Below, piece after piece: positions 22-11,568 of a stretch of 30,778 nt of DNA. The notes below the pieces were generated by a model, which saw nothing but the letters and a program-made list of their open reading frames with translations, was not told the origin of the DNA and made no database searches. The translations under genes were made by a program, and so were the position numbers. The DNA is from a virus. Location: positions 1 through 30,778 of IMG/VR virus record IMGVR_UViG_3300012954_000045; one strand, 5' to 3'. Position 1 is the first letter of the stretch. Every line of letters begins with the position of its first letter.

Positions 22-77
22 GACAGTGTACAAACCGCCACATTGCAAGTCGCCAAGGACCAGGTGTTCGCTACAAT
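22..77 (+). promoter_or_regulatory. Promoter with upstream 18-bp element (copy k)
   Basis: The 18-bp element GACAGTGTACAAACCGCC is at 22-39 and a -10 hexamer TACAAT is at 72-77, so the element ends exactly 33 bp before the -10. No good -35 is visible at 49-54. It drives the gene starting at 104. The same element and spacing recur between 4.4 and 7.8 kb. Confidence 0.55.
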
Positions 78-103
78 ATGAACATACACAAGGGAATCAC
101 ACC

Positions 104-517
104 ATGATCAACACAACACTGACTGCAGAGAAAATAGAGGACTACACAGTAATGCTGTGTGATGCTCTCTACATGAACTTCAAGGAGTACAACATTCGTG
201 CTCATCAGCGTTCCATCAATCAGGGTGAGGACAGCACTGGTTACCATGCCGAAAGAATTCAACACATCAAAGAGAATGGTGCTGACATTGAGTTCTATAT
301 CAAGAAAGGCAAGCGTTACCTCAAAGTCATCATGAAGGACAGTGGTAGTTCACAGAGCGTCCATGCCTTCGTTGATCGTGAGACAGGTGATGTGTACAAA
401 CCAGCAGGATGGAAAGGTCCTGCTAAGATTGCTCGCTACTCTCTGTTGCAAGACAGTGACCGTGAGTGGTTATACTCACACGCTGACTGGTCTGGTGGTT
501 ACCTGTATATCCGATGA
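104..517 (+). CDS. Conserved cyanophage-type hypothetical protein (137 aa)
   Basis: Function not recognised. The frame is open from position 20, but a -10 hexamer at 72-77 places transcription start near 84, so the ATG at 104 is the credible start; it is preceded by an A/C-rich leader without a clear Shine-Dalgarno. The protein is soluble and polar, with no membrane segment. A C-terminal block around residues 85-115 (VHAFVDRETGDVYKPAGWKG, then KIARYSLL) looks like a conserved beta-rich module; from memory, similar proteins are common in cyanomyoviruses. The stop overlaps the ATG of the endonuclease VII gene (ATGA at 514-517), suggesting translational coupling. Confidence 0.75.
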   Translation: MINTTLTAEKIEDYTVMLCDALYMNFKEYNIRAHQRSINQGEDSTGYHAERIQHIKENGADIEFYIKKGKRYLKVIMKDSGSSQSVHAFVDRETGDVYKPAGWKGPAKIARYSLLQDSDREWLYSHADWSGGYLYIR

Positions 518-1041
518 AAACTAAGAATCTGGACAACATTCCACTTGGGACATGTGTATGTTCCAAGTGTGGGGAACGTAAATCTAACATTGAGTACACA
601 TGGTATGGCAATAGGTTTACCAAGGATGGTAAGCGTCTACGTGTCAATACTATTTGTACCACTTGTAGCACTCGTACTGCTAAAGAACTTGCTGCTATCA
701 AGAGAAGGATAGGTAAACTAAATCCACGTCCTGCATATGGTGAAAACTGTGCCATATGTGATAAACCAGTTTATAAGAACAAAGCATCTGTACCTGATGG
801 TGTAGATGGTACATGGGGATGGCAGTGTGACCATTGTCATGAAACTGGACAGTTCAGAGGATGGTTGTGTAAGAAGTGCAACACGGGATTAGGAGCACTA
901 GGTGATGATCTAGAGTCCATTCTACGTGCCGTACAGTATCTTGCTCAACAAGATGACCTAGAGATATACACTGTGTGGAACGGTGGTAAGAGTAGAATTG
1001 CATCTAAAGTCAACAAAGAGTATCTCAAACGCGGAGAATAA
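514..1041 (+). CDS. 49: Recombination endonuclease VII-like (T4 gp49 type) HNH/His-Me nuclease
   Basis: Predicted structure-specific endonuclease that cleaves Holliday junctions and branched DNA, as T4 gp49 does during recombination and packaging. The zinc/His-Me core is clear: C79-x2-C82 and C119-x2-C122 would bind zinc, and D106-H107-x-H109 followed by N123 match the T4 pattern D40-H41-x-H43 ... N62. The segment CDHCHETGQFRGWLCKKC is typical of the Endonuclease_7 family. A second Cys pair set near the N-terminus (C16/C19 and C48/C51) suggests an extra zinc ribbon ahead of the nuclease core. At 175 aa it is slightly longer than T4 gp49 (157 aa), but it seems to lack the long C-terminal dimerisation region. 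It overlaps the previous gene by ATGA. In phages of this type it could also act as a homing-like HNH enzyme, but no intron context is seen. Confidence 0.9.
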   Translation: MKTKNLDNIPLGTCVCSKCGERKSNIEYTWYGNRFTKDGKRLRVNTICTTCSTRTAKELAAIKRRIGKLNPRPAYGENCAICDKPVYKNKASVPDGVDGTWGWQCDHCHETGQFRGWLCKKCNTGLGALGDDLESILRAVQYLAQQDDLEIYTVWNGGKSRIASKVNKEYLKRGE

Positions 1042-1098
1042 ATACACATGCTTGACAAATTCGTCATCTTACCTTAAACTTCATTCGTTCACGAATTT
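1037..1098 (+). promoter_or_regulatory. Late-type motif plus consensus sigma70 promoter and inverted repeat
   Basis: AATAAATA at 1037-1044 fits the NATAAATA late motif of T4-like cyanophages. Just downstream, TTGACA at 1052-1057 and TAAACT at 1075-1080 form a 17-bp-spaced host-type promoter. An 8-bp inverted repeat, AAATTCGT (1057-1064) and ACGAATTT (1091-1098), brackets the -10, with an extra half-site copy ATTCGT at 1083-1088. This looks like an operator arrangement. It lies before the small-gene operon beginning at 1104. Confidence 0.5.
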
Positions 1099-1103
1099 CC
1101 ACT

Positions 1104-1286
1104 ATGTACAGCACTACTACTATTGTTGATCGTTCTGTCTACTACGTAGAAGAGATCGGTTATGAGTCCGCTTTTGAGTGTGACCATGATGAAGAAGGAT
1201 GGTATGTTGAACTATCTTTCAGCGATGGTGGTTATGATGTGTACGGACCATATCATTCTAAAGAGGAAGCATCCAATGTTTTTTGA
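1104..1286 (+). CDS. Small hypothetical protein (60 aa)
   Basis: Unrecognised acidic 60-residue protein. The C-terminal segment with the pattern DVYGPYHSKEEA resembles the 'GPY-S-EEA' strand-helix motif found in many unrelated small phage proteins. It is the first gene of a run of overlapping small genes to about 3638. The ATG at 1104 lies 24 nt downstream of the -10 at 1075-1080, which supports this start, but there is no Shine-Dalgarno. It overlaps the next gene by 11 nt. Confidence 0.6.
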   Translation: MYSTTTIVDRSVYYVEEIGYESAFECDHDEEGWYVELSFSDGGYDVYGPYHSKEEASNVF

Positions 1287-1428
1287 TTCTACTTACGACC
1301 TATTTGATGAGAAGGCAGCAGAAGAAGCACATAAGTGTGCTATGGAACTAGAAAAGCGTGCTGCCGAATTAGAAGTGACAGTTGACTATTTTATTGAGGA
1401 ATTTGACATTGATGAATTCGAGATTTGA
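1276..1428 (+). CDS. Small acidic hypothetical protein (50 aa)
   Basis: Unrecognised. The frame is longer upstream (from 1162), but that part overlaps the previous gene completely; the ATG at 1276, just before the previous stop and preceded by AAGAGGAAG (purine-rich, Shine-Dalgarno-like), is preferred. The protein is strongly acidic with a probable amphipathic helix rich in Ala/Glu (residues 12-30) and an acidic tail ending DIDEFEI. It overlaps the next gene by 17 nt. Confidence 0.55.
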   Translation: MFFDSTYDLFDEKAAEEAHKCAMELEKRAAELEVTVDYFIEEFDIDEFEI

Positions 1429-1597
1429 TCTCACTCCCCAGGAAGTACAAATCCTGATGGCGTCAATGCAGTGCATGACAAAGAGTGAAGAGGCACATGC
1501 AGGACCACAGAAAGTGGTTTCACGCCTCTATAATAAATTGTATACTCGACATGAGTACCTCCTTCGACTCCAACAAGATTATGAACCCGACATTTGA
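1412..1597 (+). CDS. Small hypothetical protein (61 aa)
   Basis: Unrecognised. I choose the ATG at 1412, inside the end of the previous gene, because the sequence from there (MNSRFDLTPQEVQILMASM) starts with a helix pattern LTPQEV seen at the start of many small phage proteins. The rest is helical and basic (KVVSRLYNKLYTRHEYLLRL). It probably forms a small helical bundle, and nothing indicates a catalytic role. The upstream in-frame ATG at 1382 would lengthen the overlap and is less likely. Confidence 0.55.
   Translation: MNSRFDLTPQEVQILMASMQCMTKSEEAHAGPQKVVSRLYNKLYTRHEYLLRLQQDYEPDI
1529..1534 (+). promoter_or_regulatory. Possible internal -10 element
   Basis: A perfect TATAAT lies inside the previous gene, followed by a gene start at 1551 or 1581. 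No clear -35 is seen. A degenerate relative of the 18-bp element (GACAAAGAGTGAAGAGGC, 1477-1494) ends 35 bp upstream, so this may be a decayed member of that promoter family. Confidence 0.3.
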
Positions 1598-1820
1598 TCA
1601 AGACATGGTGTTTGCACCTCTTCCCATGAAGAAACCAGCAGCACCAACGATGCAATCGCATCGGGACAGTAAGCACACATGGAAACTGGTATTGCACAAG
1701 GACAATGGTGATAAACTCATCAGGTTCTGCAGCACCAAGAAACATGCACTTGCTGTGGGTCGAGCAGTACACAATGCTAAGACCCGCCCAACTAAAATGT
1801 TTAGCGTAACGAAAGCATGA
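1551..1820 (+). CDS. Basic hypothetical protein (89 aa; start uncertain)
   Basis: Unrecognised. The frame is open from 1485; starts at 1551 (MSTSFDSNK) and 1581 (MNPTFDQDM) are both possible and neither has a Shine-Dalgarno. A TATAAT at 1529-1534 makes the 1485 start unlikely on a transcript from that promoter. The body (about residues 40-80) is beta-alpha-like: WKLVLHKDNGDKLIRF followed by a helix KKHALAVGRAVHNAK. It is basic overall and could bind nucleic acid, but this is only charge-based. The stop overlaps the next ATG (ATGA at 1817-1820). Confidence 0.55.
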   Translation: MSTSFDSNKIMNPTFDQDMVFAPLPMKKPAAPTMQSHRDSKHTWKLVLHKDNGDKLIRFCSTKKHALAVGRAVHNAKTRPTKMFSVTKA

Positions 1821-2014
1821 AAATACAAGGAGATAGTACGCAGGGTTCTTATATCTGGAACCCTCGTAAAGAAATTGAGTACATTAAGAAAGCACTCAAG
1901 CAAGATCATCTGTACAATGAAGCAGAGATTAGACATCTCAAGTCACGACTACGTGATATGTACATTGTCAACAAACAAATGAAGAGAGGACCAGGTTTTG
2001 GCAGAGCATCCTGA
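1817..2014 (+). CDS. Small basic, helical hypothetical protein (65 aa)
   Basis: Unrecognised. It has an ATGA overlap with the previous gene. The central part (residues 18-56) is charged and predicted helical or coiled-coil-like, with alternating Lys/Arg and Glu (KEIEYIKKALKQDHLYNEAE then IRHLKSRLRDMYIVNKQMKR). The C-terminus is Gly/Arg-rich. A small DNA- or protein-binding accessory factor is possible; no family is assigned. Confidence 0.6.
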   Translation: MKIQGDSTQGSYIWNPRKEIEYIKKALKQDHLYNEAEIRHLKSRLRDMYIVNKQMKRGPGFGRAS

Positions 2015-2231
2015 AATTGCTGAACATGAATGGATTGATGATTGTTTCCGTGTATGGGAGACAAGATTTGGTCTATGGCAGTCAGAAACAAAAGAAGGAC
2101 GTAGTATGTTAACTGGTCTTCATAGAGACAATGTTATTATGATGACTCGATGGCACCTCAAGTGTGAACAAGAGGGTTGGCCAGAGGGATCTGTTCGTGT
2201 GCTTGATGTAGACCCAGCAGTAGAACTATGA
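1998..2231 (+). CDS. Hypothetical protein with TTG start (77 aa)
   Basis: Unrecognised. No ATG fits the N-terminus; the TTG at 1998 is preceded by GAGAGGA (1984-1990) at normal spacing, so this alternative start is supported. Trp-rich and acidic: WIDDCFRVWETRFGLWQS near residues 12-29 and RWHLKCEQEGWPEG near 51-64. It overlaps the previous gene by 17 nt and the next by ATGA (2228-2231). Confidence 0.55.
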   Translation: MAEHPEIAEHEWIDDCFRVWETRFGLWQSETKEGRSMLTGLHRDNVIMMTRWHLKCEQEGWPEGSVRVLDVDPAVEL

Positions 2232-2368
2232 CTGAAAACAACCAACCAAAGCAAGAGGTAGAAACACAAACTACCATCTTACAAAAGAAAGCAGGAACAT
2301 ATGTTGTTCCTAAAGGCAACGCCACACCACAGAAGGGATGGCGTACAGACAATGCACTATCGGATTGA
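2228..2368 (+). CDS. Small hydrophilic hypothetical protein (46 aa)
   Basis: Found by reading; very short. It starts with ATGA overlapping the previous stop. The N-terminal 20 residues are Gln/Thr/Glu-rich and probably disordered; the rest contains TYVVPKGNATPQKGW. No family recognised. The start is supported mainly by the overlap and by the tight packing of the operon. Confidence 0.45.
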   Translation: MTENNQPKQEVETQTTILQKKAGTYVVPKGNATPQKGWRTDNALSD

Positions 2369-2371
2369 ACC

Positions 2372-2530
2372 ATGCCAAAGAAACAACGAATCGATTCCAA
2401 AGGCAACACATGGGAGTGGGATGAAACTCCTGAAACTAAGAAAGCATTAAGAAAGTTGCACGATTCCATTGAACGTGCTAAACTTAAGCGAGAGGACGAT
2501 CATAAGGGATACGATACGTATTCCAAATAA
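2372..2530 (+). CDS. Small charged hypothetical protein (52 aa)
   Basis: Found by reading. The ATG lies 3 nt after the previous stop. The product is basic-acidic mixed: an N-terminal MPKKQRIDSKGNTWEWDETP strand-like part, then a charged helix (KKALRKLHDSIERAKLKRED). The stop TAA shares its last A with the ATG of the next gene at 2530. Function unknown. Confidence 0.5.
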   Translation: MPKKQRIDSKGNTWEWDETPETKKALRKLHDSIERAKLKREDDHKGYDTYSK

Positions 2531-2751
2531 TGCTCTCAGACCCCTCTACAATCCCCTACAACACGCTTCTATCCCACATTATGTACGAAGACATCACTAG
2601 CGAAACATTTCAAGCAGATGGTGAGTTCTGGGAGAGTATTTCTCTTCCTTGGGACGACTATGACGATTATCTACCAAAAAAGGAACTAAATACTGATTCC
2701 AATATGGAGTATAATCAATTCAATGAACTTCCCGAAGAGTACGATGTATAA
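2530..2751 (+). CDS. Acidic hypothetical protein (73 aa)
   Basis: Unrecognised, strongly acidic and aromatic, with a run WDDYDDYLPKK near residues 41-51 and an acidic C-terminus (ELPEEYDV). Such DNA-mimic-like acidity is seen in some phage inhibitor proteins, but nothing here proves that role. The start codon overlaps the previous stop (TAATG), and the 3' end overlaps the next gene by 8 nt. Confidence 0.55.
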   Translation: MLSDPSTIPYNTLLSHIMYEDITSETFQADGEFWESISLPWDDYDDYLPKKELNTDSNMEYNQFNELPEEYDV

Positions 2752-2935
2752 TTTGGAGAATGACCATGCATGTGTAATCCGAAACCTTTTACATAATGAA
2801 CGATTACAGTATGAATATGCAGATCACAAGGGCAAAGACGCTGCATATTACAAAACCATCAGCGAAGCAATCGCACGAATGGAACACCCTGAAGAATATA
2901 TCAACCCTGAAAGTGGGGGACCTAGTGATGTATGA
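2744..2935 (+). CDS. Hypothetical protein (63 aa)
   Basis: Unrecognised. ATG at 2744 is preferred over 2723 because it reduces overlap and follows a purine-rich GAAGAG. The protein is helical with a pattern CVIRNLLHNERLQYEYADHK followed by AYYKTISEAIARMEHPEEY, i.e. two helices. The last bases overlap a possible next start. Confidence 0.5.
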   Translation: MYNLENDHACVIRNLLHNERLQYEYADHKGKDAAYYKTISEAIARMEHPEEYINPESGGPSDV

Positions 2936-3062
2936 GAATTCCTTTGCTGTGGTCACTTTTACTGATCAATTGTATTGTGTCATTACAAAGGAAGGTATGC
3001 AATATGGTATCGTTATCTACCCACAATTCGTACACCGTGTCAAACAACTCCTACCTAGATGA
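2913..3062 (+). CDS. Small SH3-like hypothetical protein (49 aa; start uncertain)
   Basis: The sequence VGDLVMYENSFAVVTFTDQL is typical of a small SH3-like beta-barrel start ('KVGDLV' strand), common in short phage proteins. No ATG precedes this block closely; GTG at 2913 is chosen, CTG at 2907 or ATG at 2928 (which would lose the first strand) are alternatives. The C-terminus YPQFVHRVKQLLPR is basic. The gene overlaps its neighbours in other frames on both sides, which is unusual even for this dense cluster. Confidence 0.4.
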   Translation: MGDLVMYENSFAVVTFTDQLYCVITKEGMQYGIVIYPQFVHRVKQLLPR

Positions 3063-3237
3063 ACTCGATGACTACTACCCCAAATTTTTATCAGGTGAAC
3101 TATCTGTTAAGGAACAAGTGGATTTTATCCAAACTGTCATTGATCTTGATCTCCAGAAAAGGTATGACTTACACTACATGTGTAAATACTTCATACTTGA
3201 AGGATTCTGTTACGACGTAAATATAGGAGACACATGA
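3004..3237 (+). CDS. Hypothetical protein (77 aa)
   Basis: Unrecognised. The conserved-looking part is YLDELDDYYPKFLSGELSVK followed by a helical segment EQVDFIQTVIDLDLQKRYDL, which resembles small cyanophage proteins I have seen annotated only as DUFs. ATG at 3004 has a good Shine-Dalgarno (AAAGGAAGG, 2987-2995); GTG at 3037 would give less overlap but has none. The stop overlaps the next ATG (ATGA at 3234-3237). Confidence 0.5.
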   Translation: MVSLSTHNSYTVSNNSYLDELDDYYPKFLSGELSVKEQVDFIQTVIDLDLQKRYDLHYMCKYFILEGFCYDVNIGDT

Positions 3238-3455
3238 CAAACTCTGTACCATCAGCATATTATACTACTGTATCAAGAGGACAGGTACAACTACGCTCCT
3301 CTTCACGTAGTGGTGTAATACAAACATTTGGTTCTAACATTGCAACTGCAATTGTACAAGGTGATCAGATAGTAGCAACCAGTGACAAAGGTGTCACATA
3401 CATCTATCAGATCGCTAACAACTACGCTATACTTAAGAAGACCTTTTGGAGATGA
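3234..3455 (+). CDS. Beta-repeat-like hypothetical protein (73 aa)
   Basis: Unrecognised but with a recognisable style: RGQVQLRSSSRSGVIQTFG, then IATAIVQGDQIVATSDKG and YIYQI. This resembles a single unit of the 'IRI..GSG..I.TIG' beta-propeller/trefoil-like repeats found in bacterial proteins. The start follows ATAGGAGA (a good Shine-Dalgarno) and overlaps the previous stop (ATGA). Confidence 0.6.
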   Translation: MTNSVPSAYYTTVSRGQVQLRSSSRSGVIQTFGSNIATAIVQGDQIVATSDKGVTYIYQIANNYAILKKTFWR

Positions 3456-3458
3456 CTA

Positions 3459-3638
3459 ATGAAGTATGTTGTTCTATTTCAACGACCTGGTAGAGTAGCA
3501 AACATGGATGAATGGTTTGATACGAAACAGGAAGCGGAAAAGAGGTGTGAAGAACTGAAAGACATGTTCGATTGGTTGTATGAAAGGAACAATAGAAGTG
3601 GTGGACCATGTGATGTATGGGTAGAGGAAAAGGTATGA
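3459..3638 (+). CDS. Small hypothetical protein (59 aa)
   Basis: Found by reading. It starts 3 nt after the previous stop, with GGAGATG upstream as a Shine-Dalgarno-like sequence. The fold pattern is strand-helix-strand: MKYVVLFQRPG, a long charged helix (KQEAEKRCEELKDMFDWLYE), and a C-terminal strand CDVWVEEKV. It is the last gene of the overlapping cluster and abuts the DnaA-box segment. Function unknown. Confidence 0.6.
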   Translation: MKYVVLFQRPGRVANMDEWFDTKQEAEKRCEELKDMFDWLYERNNRSGGPCDVWVEEKV

Positions 3639-3644
3639 ACTAAC

Positions 3645-3843
3645 TTTTCCACAGTGTAACTGAAAATGTTTTTATGTTAAAATAAATATACTTACGTTTT
3701 CCACAAGGTTGTTGAAAACTTTGTAAATGCTGTGAGTTCTTGTGGTCTTAGCACGCTCGCACCCATTTGTCAAGTTTCCACAGACACTTGTAAAACTGGC
3801 ACATCTCGGAGTTTTCCACAGGAATCTCAAAAATTGTGGAAAA
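3645..3843. other. Cluster of TTTTCCACA (cyanobacterial DnaA-box) sequences; candidate origin
   Basis: Four perfect TTTTCCACA 9-mers occur at 3645-3653, 3697-3705 and 3812-3820 (+) and 3835-3843 (-), with one-mismatch copies at 3710-3718 (-) and 3774-3782 (+). The last two perfect boxes form a 10-bp perfect inverted repeat (GTTTTCCACA, 14-nt gap, TGTGGAAAAC); boxes at 3697 and 3710 form a near-perfect 24-bp palindrome (3696-3719). An A/T-rich stretch (3661-3695, containing AATAAATA at 3681-3688) could be an unwinding element. The segment 3639-3974 holds no convincing gene. TTTTCCACA is the DnaA-box consensus known from cyanobacterial origins; that this phage uses it for replication is inference. 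Confidence 0.6.
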
Positions 3844-3871
3844 CTGTGGTTTTCTGAGAAAAGTGAGAATC

Positions 3872-3955
3872 TTGACAAAATCTGCAGTTTCTGACATACT
3901 TGACAGAACTGGCAGAATGCGCTAGAATAACTCTGTTAAGGTTGATAGATATACT
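3872..3955 (+). promoter_or_regulatory. Tandem consensus sigma70-type promoters
   Basis: TTGACA (3900-3905) with TAGAAT (3923-3928), spacer 17, is near-consensus. A second pair, TTGACA (3872-3877) with CATACT (3895-3900), also has spacer 17. A further -10-like TATACT is at 3950-3955 without a -35. They read rightward from the box cluster into the gene at 3975. The 18-bp element of the later promoters is absent here. Confidence 0.55.
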
Positions 3956-3974
3956 ATAGGTAGCTTAGAGAGCT

Positions 3975-4376
3975 TTGGAGTACTTTATAGTAAAGAAGCA
4001 GCATGAAGAGATATTGGTGTGGTATCCTCCTATTAGAGGATTCAGACAGATTATTCCACAACCATACTTTTCTGTAGAACTGGCAAATCGCGTCAGAAGA
4101 CGTATGTGCCGACCAATTGGTAGATATAATCCAGATTTTGTAAAAGTTGTCAGTAGAGAACAATTAGTACAATTACTGGAAAAGTCACCAGATTGGACAA
4201 AAAAATACAAACCTGCCACCTTTATTAGAGGAGAGAACTTCTCTGACAAGGGTGAGATTCGTGGTGCCAACTATAATGATAAAGGGCACACTGAAGTAGG
4301 TAGTATAGGTTGGATGAAGTATACAGATAGATTATATAACAACAGGCGTCTGGATATTAAACCAAAGGACAGTTAG
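3975..4376 (+). CDS. Basic hypothetical protein with TTG start (133 aa)
   Basis: Unrecognised. The N-terminus requires the TTG at 3975 (then EYFIVKKQHEEILVWYPP); the next in-frame ATG would remove about 40 residues. A purine-rich AGAGAG upstream is a weak Shine-Dalgarno. The protein is basic and aromatic, with RRRMCRPIGRYNPDFVKVVS about residues 41-60 and a Gly/Asn/Lys-rich C-terminal part with repeated 'GE-F-DKGEIRG / NYNDKGH' style, partly repetitive. It is next to the DnaA-box cluster and driven by the promoters there, so a replication-linked role is possible but not shown. Its last codons (KDS, stop) overlap the first GACAGTT element. Confidence 0.55.
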   Translation: MEYFIVKKQHEEILVWYPPIRGFRQIIPQPYFSVELANRVRRRMCRPIGRYNPDFVKVVSREQLVQLLEKSPDWTKKYKPATFIRGENFSDKGEIRGANYNDKGHTEVGSIGWMKYTDRLYNNRRLDIKPKDS

Positions 4377-4437
4377 TAAAGTGTCCAAGCAGAGGAGGGT
4401 ATCCCTCAGCGATTGTGAATGTGAGCAACCTCTGCTT
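4368..4437 (+). other. GACAGTT element (copy a) followed by a three-way-junction-like hairpin
   Basis: GACAGTTAGTAAAGTGTC (4368-4385) contains the TAG stop of the previous gene. Immediately after it, AAGCAGAGG (4387-4395) pairs perfectly with CCTCTGCTT (4429-4437), enclosing an inner hairpin GAGGG-TAT-CCCTC (4395-4407; shares one base) and a second loose loop. No T-run follows. It could be a terminator, an RNA processing site or a small structured RNA; it is not a tRNA (no T-loop, too short). No -10 is visible at the usual 33-bp distance, unlike the other copies. Confidence 0.4.
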
Positions 4438-4482
4438 ATATTCATAGTATAACCGACTGGCGTCCCGATGGGGCAGGTGGTG

Positions 4483-4538
4483 GACAGTTTGGAAAGTGTC
4501 ACAGAGTGGTTGACAAGGAGTGAAATCTGATGTATATT
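4483..4538 (+). promoter_or_regulatory. Promoter with 18-bp element (copy b)
   Basis: GACAGTTTGGAAAGTGTC (4483-4500), then TTGACA (4510-4515) and TATATT (4533-4538) with a 17-bp spacer. The element ends 33 bp before the -10. This rules out the ATG at 4530 and supports ATG 4569. A weak hairpin with GTGTT/AACAC arms (4542-4560) followed by six T lies in the leader and could attenuate. Confidence 0.65.
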
Positions 4539-4568
4539 AGATGTGTTGAGTTAATTAACACATTTTTT

Positions 4569-4796
4569 ATGAACATCGAATTTTCTTCTTCTTCCATGCT
4601 GCAATCTCCGATTGTTGTTGACACCGAAGCAAATACTGCAGTGCTGACATACAAGAACAGCGGCAAGGATTACACTTATGCAATTGATAACACCTTCGTG
4701 CAAGATCTGCAGGAAACTATCACCAACGAGCAGAGCGTAGGTAAGTTTATTATTGCAGCAAGAGCAGACAAGCGTCTGACTGAAGTGACAGTTTAA
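4569..4796 (+). CDS. KTSC-like small protein (75 aa)
   Basis: The start at 4569 is set by the promoter at 4510-4538. The residues ANTAVLTYKNSGKDYTYAID, then a helix and EQSVGKFI, match the layout of the KTSC domain (strand pair with G-x-Y-x-Y, helix, S-x-G). KTSC domains occur as short stand-alone phage proteins and next to nucleic-acid enzymes; their biochemical role is unknown. The C-terminus encoded by GTGACAGTTTAA is part of the following regulatory dyad (copy c). Confidence 0.6.
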   Translation: MNIEFSSSSMLQSPIVVDTEANTAVLTYKNSGKDYTYAIDNTFVQDLQETITNEQSVGKFIIAARADKRLTEVTV

Positions 4797-4842
4797 TAAC
4801 TGTCCACTAGGGGTTGCCATGGGTGACCCCACCCCTTATAAT
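4787..4842 (+). promoter_or_regulatory. Promoter with perfect dyad element (copy c)
   Basis: GACAGTTTAATAACTGTC (4787-4804) is a perfect 7-bp dyad around TAAT and contains the TAA stop of the previous gene. TTGCCA (4814-4819) and TATAAT (4837-4842) follow with a 17-bp spacer; the element ends 33 bp before the -10. AGGGG...CCCCT pairing spans the -35 region. Confidence 0.7.
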
Positions 4843-4865
4843 AAGATCAGTTCAAACAAAACACT

Positions 4866-5387
4866 ATGGGTACACGTTCAAGAATCGGTCTAGCACTTGC
4901 TACTGATCACATTGTTTCAGTATACTGTCATTATGACGGTTACATTCAACATAACGGACGTAAACTTGTAGAGAATTATAACACTCAAGAACTGGTTGAA
5001 GATCTCATCAATGGGGGTGATATGTCATGCCTTCATAGTATTCATTTCTGGGATTCAGCACCACTTAAGCAAGTGATTGTTAACCCCGATGGTTCAAAGA
5101 CCGTGGATTACATGAGGGATGATGATGAAAACTGGGTTTATTCTCCAGTGAAAAGTGAACCCGCTCCACTGTATTATAGTGAGAGAGGAGAATCAGCACC
5201 TCCAAAGTTCAGCAACTTTGATGAGTTTATTTCTGGCAATTGTGGTGAGGAATGGTGTTACTTATTCACCCCTGGTAGAGGTTGGCAATGTTGGCAACTT
5301 GGATGGGGTGACACTAACACTCAAGAATGGGACTTCATCACAGAGGAACCATCACAAGAATTGTCAACTGATACTATGACAGTTTAA
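4866..5387 (+). CDS. Conserved phage hypothetical protein (173 aa)
   Basis: The N-terminus MGTRSRIGLA...IVSVYCHYDGY is a pattern I recognise in many phage proteins of unknown function ('TRSRIG ... IY-HWDGYP'), with the conserved Y-C-H-Y-D-G block at about residues 20-25. The middle contains a conserved-looking helix KLVENYNTQELVEDLINGGD, and the C-terminal half is Trp-rich (WGDTNTQEW). No catalytic motif or membrane segment is evident. The A/C-rich leader has no Shine-Dalgarno. Its end (MTV, stop) is again formed by the GACAGTTTAA element. Confidence 0.75.
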   Translation: MGTRSRIGLALATDHIVSVYCHYDGYIQHNGRKLVENYNTQELVEDLINGGDMSCLHSIHFWDSAPLKQVIVNPDGSKTVDYMRDDDENWVYSPVKSEPAPLYYSERGESAPPKFSNFDEFISGNCGEEWCYLFTPGRGWQCWQLGWGDTNTQEWDFITEEPSQELSTDTMTV

Positions 5388-5434
5388 GAGGTGGCACAGG
5401 GGGGATGGCACGATCCACCCCTCTGTTTTATAAT
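5378..5434 (+). promoter_or_regulatory. Promoter with 18-bp element (copy d)
   Basis: GACAGTTTAAGAGGTGGC (5378-5395) includes the TAA stop of the previous gene. ATGGCA (5405-5410) and TATAAT (5429-5434) have an 18-bp spacer; the element ends 34 bp before the -10. A GC-rich hairpin (AGGGG.GGAT / ATCC.CCCCT, 5398-5423) overlaps the -35. Confidence 0.6.
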
Positions 5435-5455
5435 GTGTGCATGGATAAAGAAACC

Positions 5456-5626
5456 ATGAACGACAAACAACTCATCTTCCTACGTGAGCAACTGCAGGAG
5501 ACCCTCTGTTGCTGGCGTGATGCAAACGACCTTCCCGATCACGTGGATGAAGAATTGTGTGACATCGTGTTGCAATGCTTCATAGAAGCAAGCGAGTGTG
5601 ACAGTGTAGAAACTGTCCCTGACTAG
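5456..5626 (+). CDS. Small acidic hypothetical protein (56 aa)
   Basis: The frame is open from 5405, but the -10 at 5429-5434 puts transcription start at about 5441. The ATG at 5456 (MNDKQLIFLREQLQETLCCW) therefore fits, leaving a short leader as in sister cassettes; ATG 5441 would be leaderless. The protein is acidic, predicted helical and Cys-rich (four Cys besides CC pair), with D/E-rich loops (DLPDHVDEELCD). Its C-terminal codons lie in the dyad element (copy e). Function unknown. Confidence 0.6.
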   Translation: MNDKQLIFLREQLQETLCCWRDANDLPDHVDEELCDIVLQCFIEASECDSVETVPD

Positions 5627-5655
5627 TTGCAGGGTACGGTTCATCCTGTTATATT
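5600..5655 (+). promoter_or_regulatory. Promoter with 18-bp element (copy e)
   Basis: GACAGTGTAGAAACTGTC (5600-5617) is a dyad with 6-bp arms within the end of the previous gene. TTGCAG (5627-5632) and TATATT (5650-5655) have a 17-bp spacer; the element ends 33 bp before the -10. CCCTG/CAGGG arms (5618-5634) form a small hairpin before and over the -35. Confidence 0.65.
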
Positions 5656-5679
5656 ATGATCATGAGCAACACAAACACC

Positions 5680-6291
5680 ATGACTGACACAAAGAACATC
5701 CTCGCCATGTACATGCAGGCAACCCCTGTTGATACTCAAGAGGGTACGGTATGGTATAACAATGCCCACAAGATCTGCAAGGGTCTAAGTGACAAATACA
5801 AAATGCCACTTTCTACAGTGGTTGGCGTTGTATCTGCTCTCAGTCCTAACAACAAATGGGACAGAAACATTCTTGACGCTGAGCAAATGATTCGTGCCTA
5901 TGCTCTAGGATATGACTATCCTAAAGTTTGCACATTCACTAGCAACAAAGACAAGGCAATGACTATCCTAGAATGTGAAATTGATTCTAGCGATAACATT
6001 TGTGCCATTCTCAAGGGTAACAAAACTATTGCATTCTTCCGAGGTATACTTACTGACGGGCAATGTGATGAAATTACTGTTGACGGTCACGCCTTCAATA
6101 TCTGGCGTGGTATGTACACTTCACTCAATGAGGTTCCCGCTATCAGCAACAAACTCTACAAGGCAATTAGTGACGCTTACCGTCAGGCGGCAGTTACTAT
6201 CAACGAAATTGAAAACACAAACTATTCACCCGCCCAGATTCAAGCGATCACATGGGTTACCCATCGGCGTGTGAATGGAGTTGTTAAGTGA
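5680..6291 (+). CDS. DUF7178-type cyanophage protein with HhH-GPD glycosylase-like pattern (203 aa)
   Basis: I recognise this as a protein family common in cyanophages (recalled as DUF7178), function unknown. ATGs at 5656 and 5662 lie at or near the expected transcription start; 5680 leaves an A/C-rich leader ending CACCATG like the sister genes. The helical pattern is suggestive: LKGNKTIAFFRGIL (111-124) followed by EITVDGHAFNIWRG (131-144) mirrors the endonuclease III order 'G-x-KTA ... VDTHxxR', with K115 and D135 20 residues apart, close to the K120/D138 spacing of E. coli Nth. VVSALSPNNKWDRNILDAEQ (50-69) resembles the helix containing 'LS.Q..D'. The typical 4Fe-4S cysteines are absent. 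A base-excision or modified-base-binding role is inference. The stop overlaps a GTG start (GTGA). Confidence 0.7.
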   Translation: MTDTKNILAMYMQATPVDTQEGTVWYNNAHKICKGLSDKYKMPLSTVVGVVSALSPNNKWDRNILDAEQMIRAYALGYDYPKVCTFTSNKDKAMTILECEIDSSDNICAILKGNKTIAFFRGILTDGQCDEITVDGHAFNIWRGMYTSLNEVPAISNKLYKAISDAYRQAAVTINEIENTNYSPAQIQAITWVTHRRVNGVVK

Positions 6292-6395
6292 CTTCTTTGC
6301 TAACCCTAATCCTCGCCCTTGTTATTATCTTGGGCGGGGTTGAGTTTGCCTATTTTTTACTAGTTCAGTTTCTATCACTATTTGTTCGCAAGTAG
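6288..6395 (+). CDS. Membrane micropeptide with GTG start (35 aa)
   Basis: A GTG overlapping the previous stop (GTGA, 6288-6291) opens a 35-residue peptide made almost wholly of one hydrophobic helix (SLLTLILALVIILGGV, then FAYFLLVQFLSLFVRK) with a basic end, a plausible inner-membrane micropeptide. A GC hairpin (CCTCGCCC / GGGCGGGG, about 6309-6337) lies in the same bases, so the stretch could instead be a terminator-like region of the previous gene. The overlap and the clean hydrophobic profile favour coding, with modest certainty. Confidence 0.4.
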   Translation: MTSLLTLILALVIILGGVEFAYFLLVQFLSLFVRK

Positions 6396-6450
6396 ACAGT
6401 TGACATAGTGGCACACACCCCGTTGCCATGGGTCGCTGATCCGCTATAAT
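6395..6450 (+). promoter_or_regulatory. Promoter with 18-bp element (copy f)
   Basis: GACAGTTGACATAGTGGC (6395-6412), overlapping the previous TAG, is followed by TTGCCA (6423-6428) and TATAAT (6445-6450), spacer 16. The element ends 33 bp before the -10. Confidence 0.65.
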
Positions 6451-6471
6451 TAAAGCATGAACAAAACAAAG

Positions 6472-6660
6472 ATGATCAAATCAGCAGACGGCATGTTCTT
6501 CCATAACGAGAACCCGTCACCCATCGTGCAAGCGGCAATGGACAGCATCCGCCAGCAGATGGCAGCAGAGACCGCCTATCGTGAGCGGGTCCGTCAGGGT
6601 CTAGAACCTGCACCACGTACCCAGAACTGGGGAACCTGGAACATCAGCGACCGCCACTAA
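6472..6660 (+). CDS. Small hypothetical protein (62 aa)
   Basis: An upstream ATG at 6457 coincides with the expected transcription start from the -10 at 6445-6450, so it would be leaderless. The ATG at 6472 (MIKSADGMFFHNENPSPIVQ) then has an A/C-rich leader like the sister genes and is preferred. The protein has a central helix (AAMDSIRQQMAAETAYRERV) and a Trp-containing tail. Unrecognised. Its final codons form the left arm of a strong terminator. Confidence 0.6.
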   Translation: MIKSADGMFFHNENPSPIVQAAMDSIRQQMAAETAYRERVRQGLEPAPRTQNWGTWNISDRH

Positions 6661-6675
6661 GGCGGTCTTTTTTTT
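6649..6675 (+). terminator. Rho-independent terminator
   Basis: GACCGCC (6649-6655), loop ACTAA containing the stop codon TAA, GGCGGTC (6661-6667), then eight T. This is a textbook intrinsic terminator ending the 6472 gene. Confidence 0.95.
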
Positions 6676-6746
6676 GCCCTGCCTTCCCTATTTTGGGCTC
6701 TACCTTCATTCTAGCACAAGGTGGGGAACTATGGGGGACAGAGTGT

Positions 6747-6802
6747 GCCACTTTGCAAACTGGTCACATACCCCTTGGCACTGCTTCCCATGCTGCTATA
6801 AT
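6747..6802 (+). promoter_or_regulatory. Promoter with 18-bp element in reverse orientation (copy g)
   Basis: GCCACTTTGCAAACTGGTC (6747-6765) is the reverse complement form of the element with one extra base. TTGGCA (6775-6780) and TATAAT (6797-6802) follow, spacer 16; the element ends 32 bp before the -10. Confidence 0.55.
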
Positions 6803-6828
6803 AAGTACATAACAAACAAAGCAACATC

Positions 6829-7077
6829 ATGAACGGTTGGGCAAACTACGAAACTTGGAACGCTTCCCTCTGGATCGGCAACGATGAGTTTCTATACAAC
6901 ACCGCTAAGGCGTGTGTGACATACGTGGGCGACAATGAGACCCCATGGGATAAGTTCGTGCGCTGCATGACAGAGGGCATGATCGGACGCTTCATGGGTG
7001 AGACAGGCGATGGCGTCAAGTGGAACGACTCAGCGATCAACGCTGACGAGATGAACGCCATGATGGTCGAACTCTAA
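6829..7077 (+). CDS. DUF7249-like small phage protein (82 aa)
   Basis: The N-terminus MNGWANYETWNASLWIGNDE is a pattern I recognise from a widespread small cyanophage/phage family of unknown function (recalled as DUF7249: 'NYETWNVALWI-NDE'). The conserved second part is TGDGVKWNDSAINADEMNAM (about residues 59-78), also typical. The start follows a 26-nt A/C-rich leader with no Shine-Dalgarno. No catalytic motif or membrane segment. Codon use is visibly GC-richer than in the structural genes. Confidence 0.75.
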   Translation: MNGWANYETWNASLWIGNDEFLYNTAKACVTYVGDNETPWDKFVRCMTEGMIGRFMGETGDGVKWNDSAINADEMNAMMVEL

Positions 7078-7121
7078 ACTGTCCACTAGGGGGGTGACAT
7101 CACCCCTCGAACCTCTATAAT
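7066..7121 (+). promoter_or_regulatory. Promoter with right half of the element (copy h)
   Basis: CTAAACTGTCCACTAGGGG overlaps the stop of the previous gene; the right half AAACTGTC is intact, the left half is degenerate (18-mer 7066-7083). GTGACA (7094-7099) and TATAAT (7116-7121) have spacer 16; the element ends 33 bp before the -10. A perfect 7-bp dyad GGGGTGA-CA-TCACCCC (7091-7106) covers the -35. Confidence 0.6.
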
Positions 7122-7144
7122 ATAAACAAGCAACACAACAGACC

Positions 7145-7348
7145 ATGGCAACAGCAGATTTCGCAGTTCAACCCGCATCCTTCGGCAAGTTCGATGAGTG
7201 GGGTTGCGACTGGGCGACAGACATCAACCACGCCTATCGCCTCGCTGCCACCTATGGAGAGGATGCCGTCATCTGGCGCTGTCCCCACCAGGGCACGCCA
7301 ATGGCGTGGGTCCGTGTTAACATGAACGAAACCATCACCACAAAATGA
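7145..7348 (+). CDS. Small hypothetical protein (67 aa)
   Basis: Unrecognised. A Trp- and Cys-containing globular-looking protein: FGKFDEWGCDWATDINHAYR, then AATYGEDAVIWRCPHQGTPM and a short basic/Thr tail. ATG at 7145 follows CAACACAACAGACC, the A/C leader typical of this block. The end overlaps the next start (ATGA, 7345-7348). Confidence 0.65.
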   Translation: MATADFAVQPASFGKFDEWGCDWATDINHAYRLAATYGEDAVIWRCPHQGTPMAWVRVNMNETITTK

Positions 7349-7461
7349 AAACTCTTCTCATCGCTGTCTTTGCTCTCACCGTTGGCGTTGCCTATGGCGA
7401 CTATTTCATCGAAGGCATCCGAGCAGGTGCCGACCTGATCGAGCAGCAACGCCAATCCTGA
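7345..7461 (+). CDS. Small secreted/membrane-anchored peptide (38 aa)
   Basis: Starts with ATGA overlapping the previous stop. MKTLLIAVFALTVGVAYGDY is a typical signal peptide or N-terminal anchor (Lys, then about 13 hydrophobic residues), followed by a short polar amphipathic tail (IRAGADLIEQQRQS). Translationally coupled to the gene before it; function unknown. The stop overlaps the beginning of the next AAACTGTCC element. Confidence 0.55.
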   Translation: MKTLLIAVFALTVGVAYGDYFIEGIRAGADLIEQQRQS

Positions 7462-7506
7462 AACTGTCCATTGGCCGCGGCGGATAGACACCGCCCCGCC
7501 TATAAT
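7451..7506 (+). promoter_or_regulatory. Promoter with right half of the element, no -35 (copy i)
   Basis: GCCAATCCTGAAACTGTC (7451-7468) has an intact right half; TATAAT is at 7501-7506, 33 bp downstream. The expected -35 position (7478-7483, CGGCGG) is not -35-like, and a GGCGG/CCGCC hairpin (7479-7499 region) lies there instead. It may need an activator. Confidence 0.5.
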
Positions 7507-7530
7507 AAACAAGTCAACCAAAACGACACC

Positions 7531-7701
7531 ATGCCTATCTCTGACGCCTATCTGATGGATCTCCAGATCGAAGATCTGATGTATGATCAAATCGATGCTC
7601 AAGAGTTGGAGGACTGCGACCTTCCCGACTGGTTCACCGCTGACGATGATCAGGAACTGGAAGCGTTCTCCCTTGAGTGCGCCTTCGGACCAGAGGAGTG
7701 A
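7531..7701 (+). CDS. Very acidic small protein (56 aa)
   Basis: The frame opens at 7471, but the -10 at 7501-7506 fixes the start at 7531 (MPISDAYLMDLQIEDLMYDQ). Extremely acidic, with almost no basic residue, Asp/Glu in most positions of EDLMYDQIDAQELEDCDLPD and a C-terminal FGPEE. The charge recalls small DNA-mimic inhibitors, which is only an analogy. No family recognised. Its TGA overlaps the next element. Confidence 0.6.
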   Translation: MPISDAYLMDLQIEDLMYDQIDAQELEDCDLPDWFTADDDQELEAFSLECAFGPEE

Positions 7702-7755
7702 CAATCCAGGAAGTGGCACACCACCACTTCCCCCCCTGCGCTCAGGCGCTATAAT
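7700..7755 (+). promoter_or_regulatory. Promoter with 18-bp element, weak -35 (copy j)
   Basis: GACAATCCAGGAAGTGGC (7700-7717), then TATAAT (7750-7755), 33 bp apart. The expected -35 (7727-7732, ACTTCC) is poor. Short dyads (GTGG-CACA-CCAC, GCGC-TCAG-GCGC) lie between. Confidence 0.55.
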
Positions 7756-7782: not shown

Positions 7783-7962
7783 ATGACAAAGAACGAATCC
7801 TTCCAAGCAGCACGCAACGTGATCACAGGCAAGCGTGGAGACATCACCCGCAAGGGTCTGCAGACCGCCGCCATGGCGATGGGTCGCTCACGTGAGCAGG
7901 TAGACAAGGCAAGCACCATGCGTCTTGCATTCTGGGCATCAGTTGGCAAATCCTGCATCTGA
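7783..7962 (+). CDS. Small basic hypothetical protein (59 aa)
   Basis: Found by reading. ATG at 7783 follows the leader AACAAACAAACACTTCATC. The product is basic and probably helical, with a helix-turn-helix-like rhythm: FQAARNVITGKRGDITRKGL, then QTAAMAMGRSREQVDKAST. It could bind DNA, but I cannot assign a family. A terminator follows 12 nt after the stop. Confidence 0.6.
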   Translation: MTKNESFQAARNVITGKRGDITRKGLQTAAMAMGRSREQVDKASTMRLAFWASVGKSCI

Positions 7963-11266: not shown

Positions 11267-11416
11267 ATGGCAATGCGGTCCAAAGTTGGCACTTCAGGCG
11301 TAAATTTCATGCCTGGAAAACCCAAAATGACTCGTCAAGGGTCATCACAAAACACAAAGTACGCTGCAACCTCACGTAATAACAAGAAAAAGCGTTATAG
11401 AGGTCAAGGACGTTGA
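11267..11416 (+). CDS. Small highly basic protein (49 aa), conserved in cyanophages
   Basis: Found by reading. The sequence style (MAMRSKVGTSGVNFMPGKPK, later TRQGSSQNT, TSRNNKKKRYRGQGR) is one I recognise as a conserved tiny protein of T4-like cyanophages. It carries roughly one basic residue in four and no acidic ones, so it probably binds nucleic acid or a phosphate-rich surface. It has its own strong promoter and an A-rich leader with no Shine-Dalgarno. Function not known to me. Confidence 0.7.
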   Translation: MAMRSKVGTSGVNFMPGKPKMTRQGSSQNTKYAATSRNNKKKRYRGQGR

Positions 11417-11436
11417 GACCAGAGACCAGAAAATCC

Positions 11437-11568
11437 ATGGAAATGCTCTGGAGTGCTAAATGGAACCTTCCAAAAGCAGCAGAGTACTGTAATCTTACTC
11501 TTAAAGAGATGAAAATTACCTTTAATGAGTACTGTAACTTCCATCCACCTACGTATAAAGAAGAATGA
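11437..11568 (+). CDS. Small hypothetical protein (43 aa)
   Basis: Found by reading. MEMLWSAKWNLPKAAEYCNL opens a helical peptide with the look of a minimal helix-turn-helix ('PKAAEYCNLTLKEMKITFNE'), ending HPPTYKEE. Its stop overlaps the next ATG (ATGA at 11565-11568), a coupling signal that supports translation. An in-frame ATG at 11443 is the alternative start. Confidence 0.55.
   Translation: MEMLWSAKWNLPKAAEYCNLTLKEMKITFNEYCNFHPPTYKEE

Follow-up and report, generated by a model that had tools for sequence, protein, structure and literature searches.

A 24-bp palindrome at fixed distance upstream of predicted early promoters in T4-like cyanophages

A 24-bp palindromic element recurs at 31-33 bp from the -10 hexamer of predicted promoters in IMG/VR virus record IMGVR_UViG_3300012954_000045 (30,778 bases, analysed over its whole length and hereafter called the window) and in T4-like cyanophage genomes. 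Both the element and its fixed spacing to the -10 were confirmed. Based on the site, its spacing, the start-region consensus, the gene context, the phage restriction and the lack of covariation between the arms, all read from sequence, these are predicted to be early promoters of T4-like cyanophages at which host RNA polymerase would be activated by a dimeric factor bound to the palindrome near -54 (probability roughly 0.75). One DNA-binding protein would then probably switch many small genes together. T4-like cyanophages, which are among the most abundant marine viruses, steer the host's RNA polymerase towards early genes although they have none of alt, motA and asiA of T4. The window phage was counted as a T4-like cyanophage because a region of small open reading frames (ORFs) is followed by gp25/gp6-like baseplate genes; judged by this arrangement, which is the same in S-PM2, S-WAM2 and S-RIM32, it is one.

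The gap was counted as the intervening bases between the end of the 18-bp core of the element and the start of the -10. The element had been given as 18 bp in the preliminary description, but conservation extends over a palindrome of 24 bp with the consensus TGTGmCAsTTnnnnAAsTGkCACA, that is TGTG[AC]CA[CG]TTnnnnAA[CG]TG[GT]CACA. The -10 (TATAAT) follows 31-33 bp past the core, and a purine-T pair lies 12-13 bases after the -10 start, a position that fits transcription start there. Counted from this predicted start, the core extends from approximately -62 to -45 and the palindrome is centred near -54 (about -53.5). The half proximal to the -10 is better conserved than the distal half (11.9 versus 8.9 bits), as expected if that side faces the polymerase. 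Base preferences are symmetric, yet mirror positions do not covary, a test for which the earlier promoter set was used, before retraining without the window copies. Each arm is thus read on its own, as would be the case for a dimeric protein bound to double-stranded DNA, and the palindrome looks like such a site on DNA rather than an RNA hairpin. The spacer of 31-33 bp is free in sequence and differs between copies. Hairpins are enriched in it, 36% of spacers falling in the top 5% of their shuffles versus 8% upstream and 4% downstream, with similar values in isolate genomes; many of them have the form of classical terminators whose T-run lies immediately ahead of the -10.

Controls against chance were carried out in the window, in IMG/VR and in phage genomes. 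The pattern GACAGTN6ACTGTC, allowing up to 2 mismatches, was found at 9 places in the window versus 1 for the reversed control pattern. A first weight matrix, containing a few window copies (loci L130-L133), recovered 9 of the 10 plus-strand promoters and gave no match in five shuffled windows. The final matrix was trained on IMG/VR promoters chosen by the -10 and downstream bases, window copies left out; it gave 13 matches in the window (9 on the plus and 4 on the minus strand) and none in the shuffle. This matrix was run on 17 sequences, being the window, 11 T4-like cyanophages, S-TIM5, T4, HTVC008M, P-SSP7 and Ma-LMM01, and 2 matches were obtained in shuffles of all 17. Moving the allowed spacing by +20 or -10 bp left far fewer matches. 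In IMG/VR, GACAGTN6ACTGTC with a TATAAT 28-36 bp further on gave 133 matches, 125 of them at 31-33 bp (41 at 31, 64 at 32 and 20 at 33 bp; 8 at all other distances in the range). The genomes yielded 28, 73 and 24 matches at gaps of 31, 32 and 33 bp, versus about 2 per other offset. Following selection of IMG/VR promoters solely by the -10 and following bases (TATAATAAGTACATANCAAA), an unbiased set, 80 of the 87 outside the window carried the element at 31-33 bp. A chance origin was rejected on the shuffles, reversed patterns and wrong-spacing controls. The scan for enrichment upstream of -10 hexamers elsewhere, proposed in the preliminary description, was run in other phages and bore the enrichment out.

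The final matrix gave 200 matches in the 11 T4-like cyanophage genomes, 7-32 in each, among them Syn9, P-TIM40, P-SSM2 and S-PM2. Syn9 holds 12 and P-TIM40 16 promoter matches at 31-33 bp, mostly in small-ORF regions. Elements of predicted Syn9 promoters lie at 44777, 47207, 48561, 49081, 51003, 52999, 127495, 130356 and 148745, among others. In most genomes the matches concentrate in one 30-kb stretch (20 of 24 in P-SSM2, 24 of 32 in S-CAM7); they gather in the variable small-ORF region and adjoin gp25 in several genomes. S-TIM5 (NC_019516), of a myovirus lineage outside Kyanoviridae, carries six matrix matches within 8 kb (163777-170891), with a gap of 33 bp in five and 32 bp in one; these are missed by the exact pattern. 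No match was obtained in T4, HTVC008M, P-SSP7 or Ma-LMM01. HTVC008M infects Pelagibacter, yet is filed in the family of the T4-like cyanophages. The zero count for Ma-LMM01 agrees with the report that this phage has only SigA-like promoters and no phage-specific motifs (PMC5780444). Among GTDB genomes (257 Gb, bacteria and archaea), the element with a -10 gave 20 matches versus approximately 22 expected by chance on a uniform 4^18 estimate, and none of the 20 was in marine picocyanobacteria. The element was found in 1 of 386 cyanobacterial genomes. In a single cyanobacterial family with small genomes, represented by 60 of them, the palindrome by itself matched 6 times and the control 13 times. 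By these counts the element is phage-restricted. The site is sharply defined, and its matrix picks out 7-32 promoters in each cyanophage genome but hardly any in sequences that are shuffled or unrelated; this makes the factor directly fishable and provides a tool for annotating early genes in metagenomic phages.

An ORF starts 10-75 bp after the -10 in 38-83% of matches, versus 10-17% at random positions. The promoter stands immediately before the DUF7717 gene in 7 of the 8 genomes with an orthologue, the window included, and the element is likewise found with the DUF7249 orthologues of S-WAM2 and S-CAM7. The palindrome itself is frequently located where the preceding ORF ends, on its stop codon or close to it. 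Products of the promoter-served genes in the window are of unknown function (DUF7717, DUF7178, DUF7249, phrog_1987 and others). The proposal that these promoters form a coordinated phage regulon, on which an activator could act from near -54, gained support from the fixed spacing over hundreds of promoters in many phages, the phage restriction and the DUF7717 context.

In the proposed mechanism, the -10 TATAAT would be recognised by the host's RNA polymerase carrying the main sigma factor, and transcription would start at a purine followed by T, while a dimeric DNA-binding protein would sit on the 24-bp palindrome. This protein would most likely contact the polymerase, so that these promoters would be activated or captured together; the rigid spacing, the frequent absence of a -35 and the stronger proximal half argue for such contact and hence for activation over repression. 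The spacer, mostly without a good -35, would hold in about a third of promoters a hairpin or terminator closing the preceding gene. From these features we infer dimer binding, activation, early expression and a phage-associated factor, made early or delivered. A more specific proposal is offered tentatively: a dimeric activator of a new kind, which the cyanophage would carry or make, might capture host polymerase at promoters with a -10 only, the -35 region being freed for the terminator of the preceding gene, and might be shared by two cyanomyovirus lineages and absent from their Pelagibacter-infecting relative.

Several points weigh against activation by such a factor. A -35 of at least 5/6 occurs in 13% of promoters, versus 3% of shuffled spacers, so that most were taken to lack one; in the window, the -35 reaches 4/6 or better in 6 of the 9 matrix-scored plus-strand promoters. 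As a -35 is present in some promoters, the activator would not be obligatory at all of them. The centre at -54 fits neither standard activating position of CRP. The binding protein was not found, the best candidates failing strict co-occurrence with the element. Finally, activation and early timing of the predicted promoters are both properties that we infer.

Screens for a protein common to the element-bearing phages and absent from the others gave no clean candidate; three proteins were considered, and each fell short. Syn9 gp230 (phrog_385, 'transcriptional regulator') has a relative in HTVC008M by profile search and no recognised DNA-binding domain. A MazE/AbrB-like protein of 57 amino acids (aa; Syn9 53843-54016) is absent from S-CRM01, and its S-TIM5 relative is partial. 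A small protein encoded at window 11413-11568 is absent from P-TIM40; this product of approximately 51-54 aa resembles a lone helix-turn-helix (NLPKAAEYCNLTLKEMKITF), is conserved in most cyanophages and has no Pfam match. Separately, window 11267-11416 encodes a tiny, very basic protein of approximately 48 aa (PKKTRQG...SRNxAKKRYRGQG) with relatives in Syn9, S-PM2, P-SSM2 and S-TIM5. By profile search it was found in every cyanomyovirus examined, including S-TIM5, and not in T4 or HTVC008M.

Other explanations differ in what would bind the site and to what effect. A transcription factor of the picocyanobacterial host might bind it, the phage mimicking host operators. This would suit promoters that must act before phage protein synthesis, and it would suit the presence of the element in S-TIM5, of another myovirus lineage, together with its absence from the same-family Pelagibacter phage HTVC008M. 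Host genomes, however, show no excess of the site with or without a -10, which disfavours a host regulon, and the element matches neither the NtcA (GTA-N8-TAC) nor the Pho-box consensus. A host factor is therefore doubtful and a phage protein more likely. Somewhat less plausible still is a repressor that has the palindrome as its operator and silences the early genes as infection proceeds. Repressors typically bind palindromes as dimers, and with a strong -10 and initiator and in some cases a full TTGACA -35 the promoters could work unaided; but a repressor would not need a gap fixed at 31-33 bp with a centre at -54, the site falls outside the core footprint of the polymerase, on its upstream side, and it is the polymerase-facing half that is better conserved.

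The repeated unit might also be mainly a recombination cassette of promoter and stem-loop that shuffles small genes, its conservation resulting from recombination. Such promoter-early stem-loop (PeSL) cassettes have reportedly been described in T4-type phages (Arbiol 2010; Comeau 2014; cited in PMC4503421). The likeness would lie in the pairing of a compact early promoter and a stem-loop terminator within variable, small-gene-rich regions, and both the enrichment of spacer hairpins and terminators and the gathering of sites in the variable small-ORF region, beside gp25 in several genomes, are in line with it. Here, in contrast, the constant part is a 24-bp palindrome at fixed distance, and a strong spacer hairpin is present in about a third of copies and missing from most. 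From copy to copy the spacer sequence changes but the distance and consensus of the two ends do not, whereas homology for recombination would conserve the middle too. We regard recombination as the main cause as improbable, although a cassette role and a protein-site role can coexist. Least credible, and by a wide measure, is a role in RNA, in which the palindrome would form a hairpin where the preceding transcript has its 3' end and act as terminator or processing site. The palindrome could fold and often stands at or near the preceding stop codon, but its letters are conserved rather than its pairing, the mirror positions lack covariation, its distance to the next -10 is fixed, and true terminators, where present, are separate and lie in the spacer.

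Doron et al. 2016 (ISME J) reportedly described a novel early-gene regulatory element for Syn9 and P-TIM40, widely distributed among T4-like cyanophages. Since both phages carry the present element, it is probably of the same class and the window phage a further example. In the light of that reported element, the view of the preliminary description that no factor with this site had been described is probably wrong. The literature searched, which did not include Doron et al. 2016, gave no description of the motif. The full length of the palindrome, the 32-bp rule, the spacer terminators, the sites readable in both directions, the occurrence in S-TIM5 and the lack of an excess in hosts come from this analysis, and any of them may have been published before.

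The arrangement resembles the class I and class II activator sites of the CRP family, including cyanobacterial NtcA, in that a palindrome suited to a dimer keeps a constant distance to the start. NtcA-activated promoters carry the palindrome GTA-N8-TAC, usually near -41.5. In the present element the half-site differs, the centre is near -53.5 rather than -41.5 or -61.5, and there are no copies at host promoters; NtcA-activated promoters were therefore rejected as a match, and the distinction from the NtcA box drawn earlier holds, since the consensus lacks the GTA-N8-TAC core. The Pho-box consensus is likewise not matched. The MotA-dependent middle promoters of T4 are similar in that a site specific to the phage precedes a sigma-70 -10, a good -35 is often missing and host polymerase is used. 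The MotA box is short, non-palindromic and near -30. Membership of this class was rejected, because the present site is a palindrome near -54 and cyanophages lack motA and asiA (PMC2984593).

All eleven site sequences listed in the preliminary description were recovered at their positions in the window. The spacing proved tighter than had been claimed, with a gap of 32 bp at nine of the ten plus-strand sites (22, 4483, 4787, 5600, 6395, 6747, 7066, 7451 and 7700) and 33 bp at one (5378); the earlier value of 33 corresponds to 32 because it was counted from end to start. Nine of the ten promoter elements passed the weight matrix, while the copy at 7066 has the right half only and falls below threshold. 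The reverse-form copy is present, its end being better read as 6764 than as 6765.

The first promoter has the element at 22-39 (plus strand, 34.9 bits) and the -10 TACAAT at 72-77, before the DUF7717 gene (104-517). Right behind this gene, 514-1041 encodes an endonuclease VII-like protein (phrog_2633, E 7.5e-20); among its relatives in the searched phages none has the promoter element. The copy at 4368-4385, described earlier as lacking a visible -10, is on the minus strand, with TATAAT at 4336-4331 and a gap of 31 bp. Two sites can be read both ways. On the plus strand, the element at 4483-4500 has the -10 TATATT at 4533-4538 and the -35 TTGACA and precedes the ORF at 4530-4796; on the minus strand it has TATACT at 4451-4446 (gap 31 bp). 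The element at 6747-6764 (GCCACTTTGCAAACTGGT, 40.6 bits) has TATAAT at 6797-6802 within TATAATAAGTACATAACAAA on the plus strand, before the DUF7249 gene (6829-7077), and TAGAAT at 6713-6708 on the minus strand (gap 33 bp).

The remaining promoters are on the plus strand. A perfect 6+6 element at 4787-4804 (36.2 bits), with TATAAT at 4837-4842 and a GC-rich inverted repeat in its spacer, stands before the ORF at 4866-5387 (phrog_1987). The element at 5378-5395 (34.2 bits) lies over the stop codon of the preceding ORF, has TATAAT at 5429-5434 and contains a terminator-like hairpin in its spacer. The second perfect 6+6 element, at 5600-5617 with TATATT at 5650-5655, precedes the DUF7178 gene (5656-6291), and that at 6395-6412 (41.5 bits), with TATAAT at 6445-6450 and the -35 TTGCCA, precedes the ORF at 6457-6660. 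The weakest member is the right half-site at 7066-7083 (AAACTGTC), with TATAAT at 7116-7121. At 7451-7468 (21.4 bits) the left half is degraded; TATAAT follows at 7501-7506, before an ORF from 7531. The best match in the window, 7700-7717 (GACAATCCAGGAAGTGGC, 42.6 bits), has TATAAT at 7750-7755 and precedes the ORF at 7783-7962. Its promoter and that at 6747 are identical over 20 bases from the -10 onward. In Syn9 (NC_008296), the copies at 46292, 48561, 51003 and 52999 share the unusual -10 region TATTCTATA[AG]GAGT at 32 bp, which suggests a lineage-specific -10 variant.

A twelfth copy, missing from the preliminary description, was found at 3783-3800 on the plus strand (GACACTTGTAAAACTGGC, 20.6 bits); it has no -10 on either strand and lies within a cluster of DnaA-box-like sequences. 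This cluster, in the non-coding stretch 3645-3843, comprises four TTTTCCACA (3645, 3697, 3812 and, on the minus strand, 3835) and one TTTCCACA (3775), which we take to be the cyanobacterial form of the DnaA box, and the stretch might be an origin of the phage. TTTCCACA also forms smaller clusters in Syn9 (52192), S-MbCM25 (43203) and S-PM2 (19232), each within the small-ORF region.

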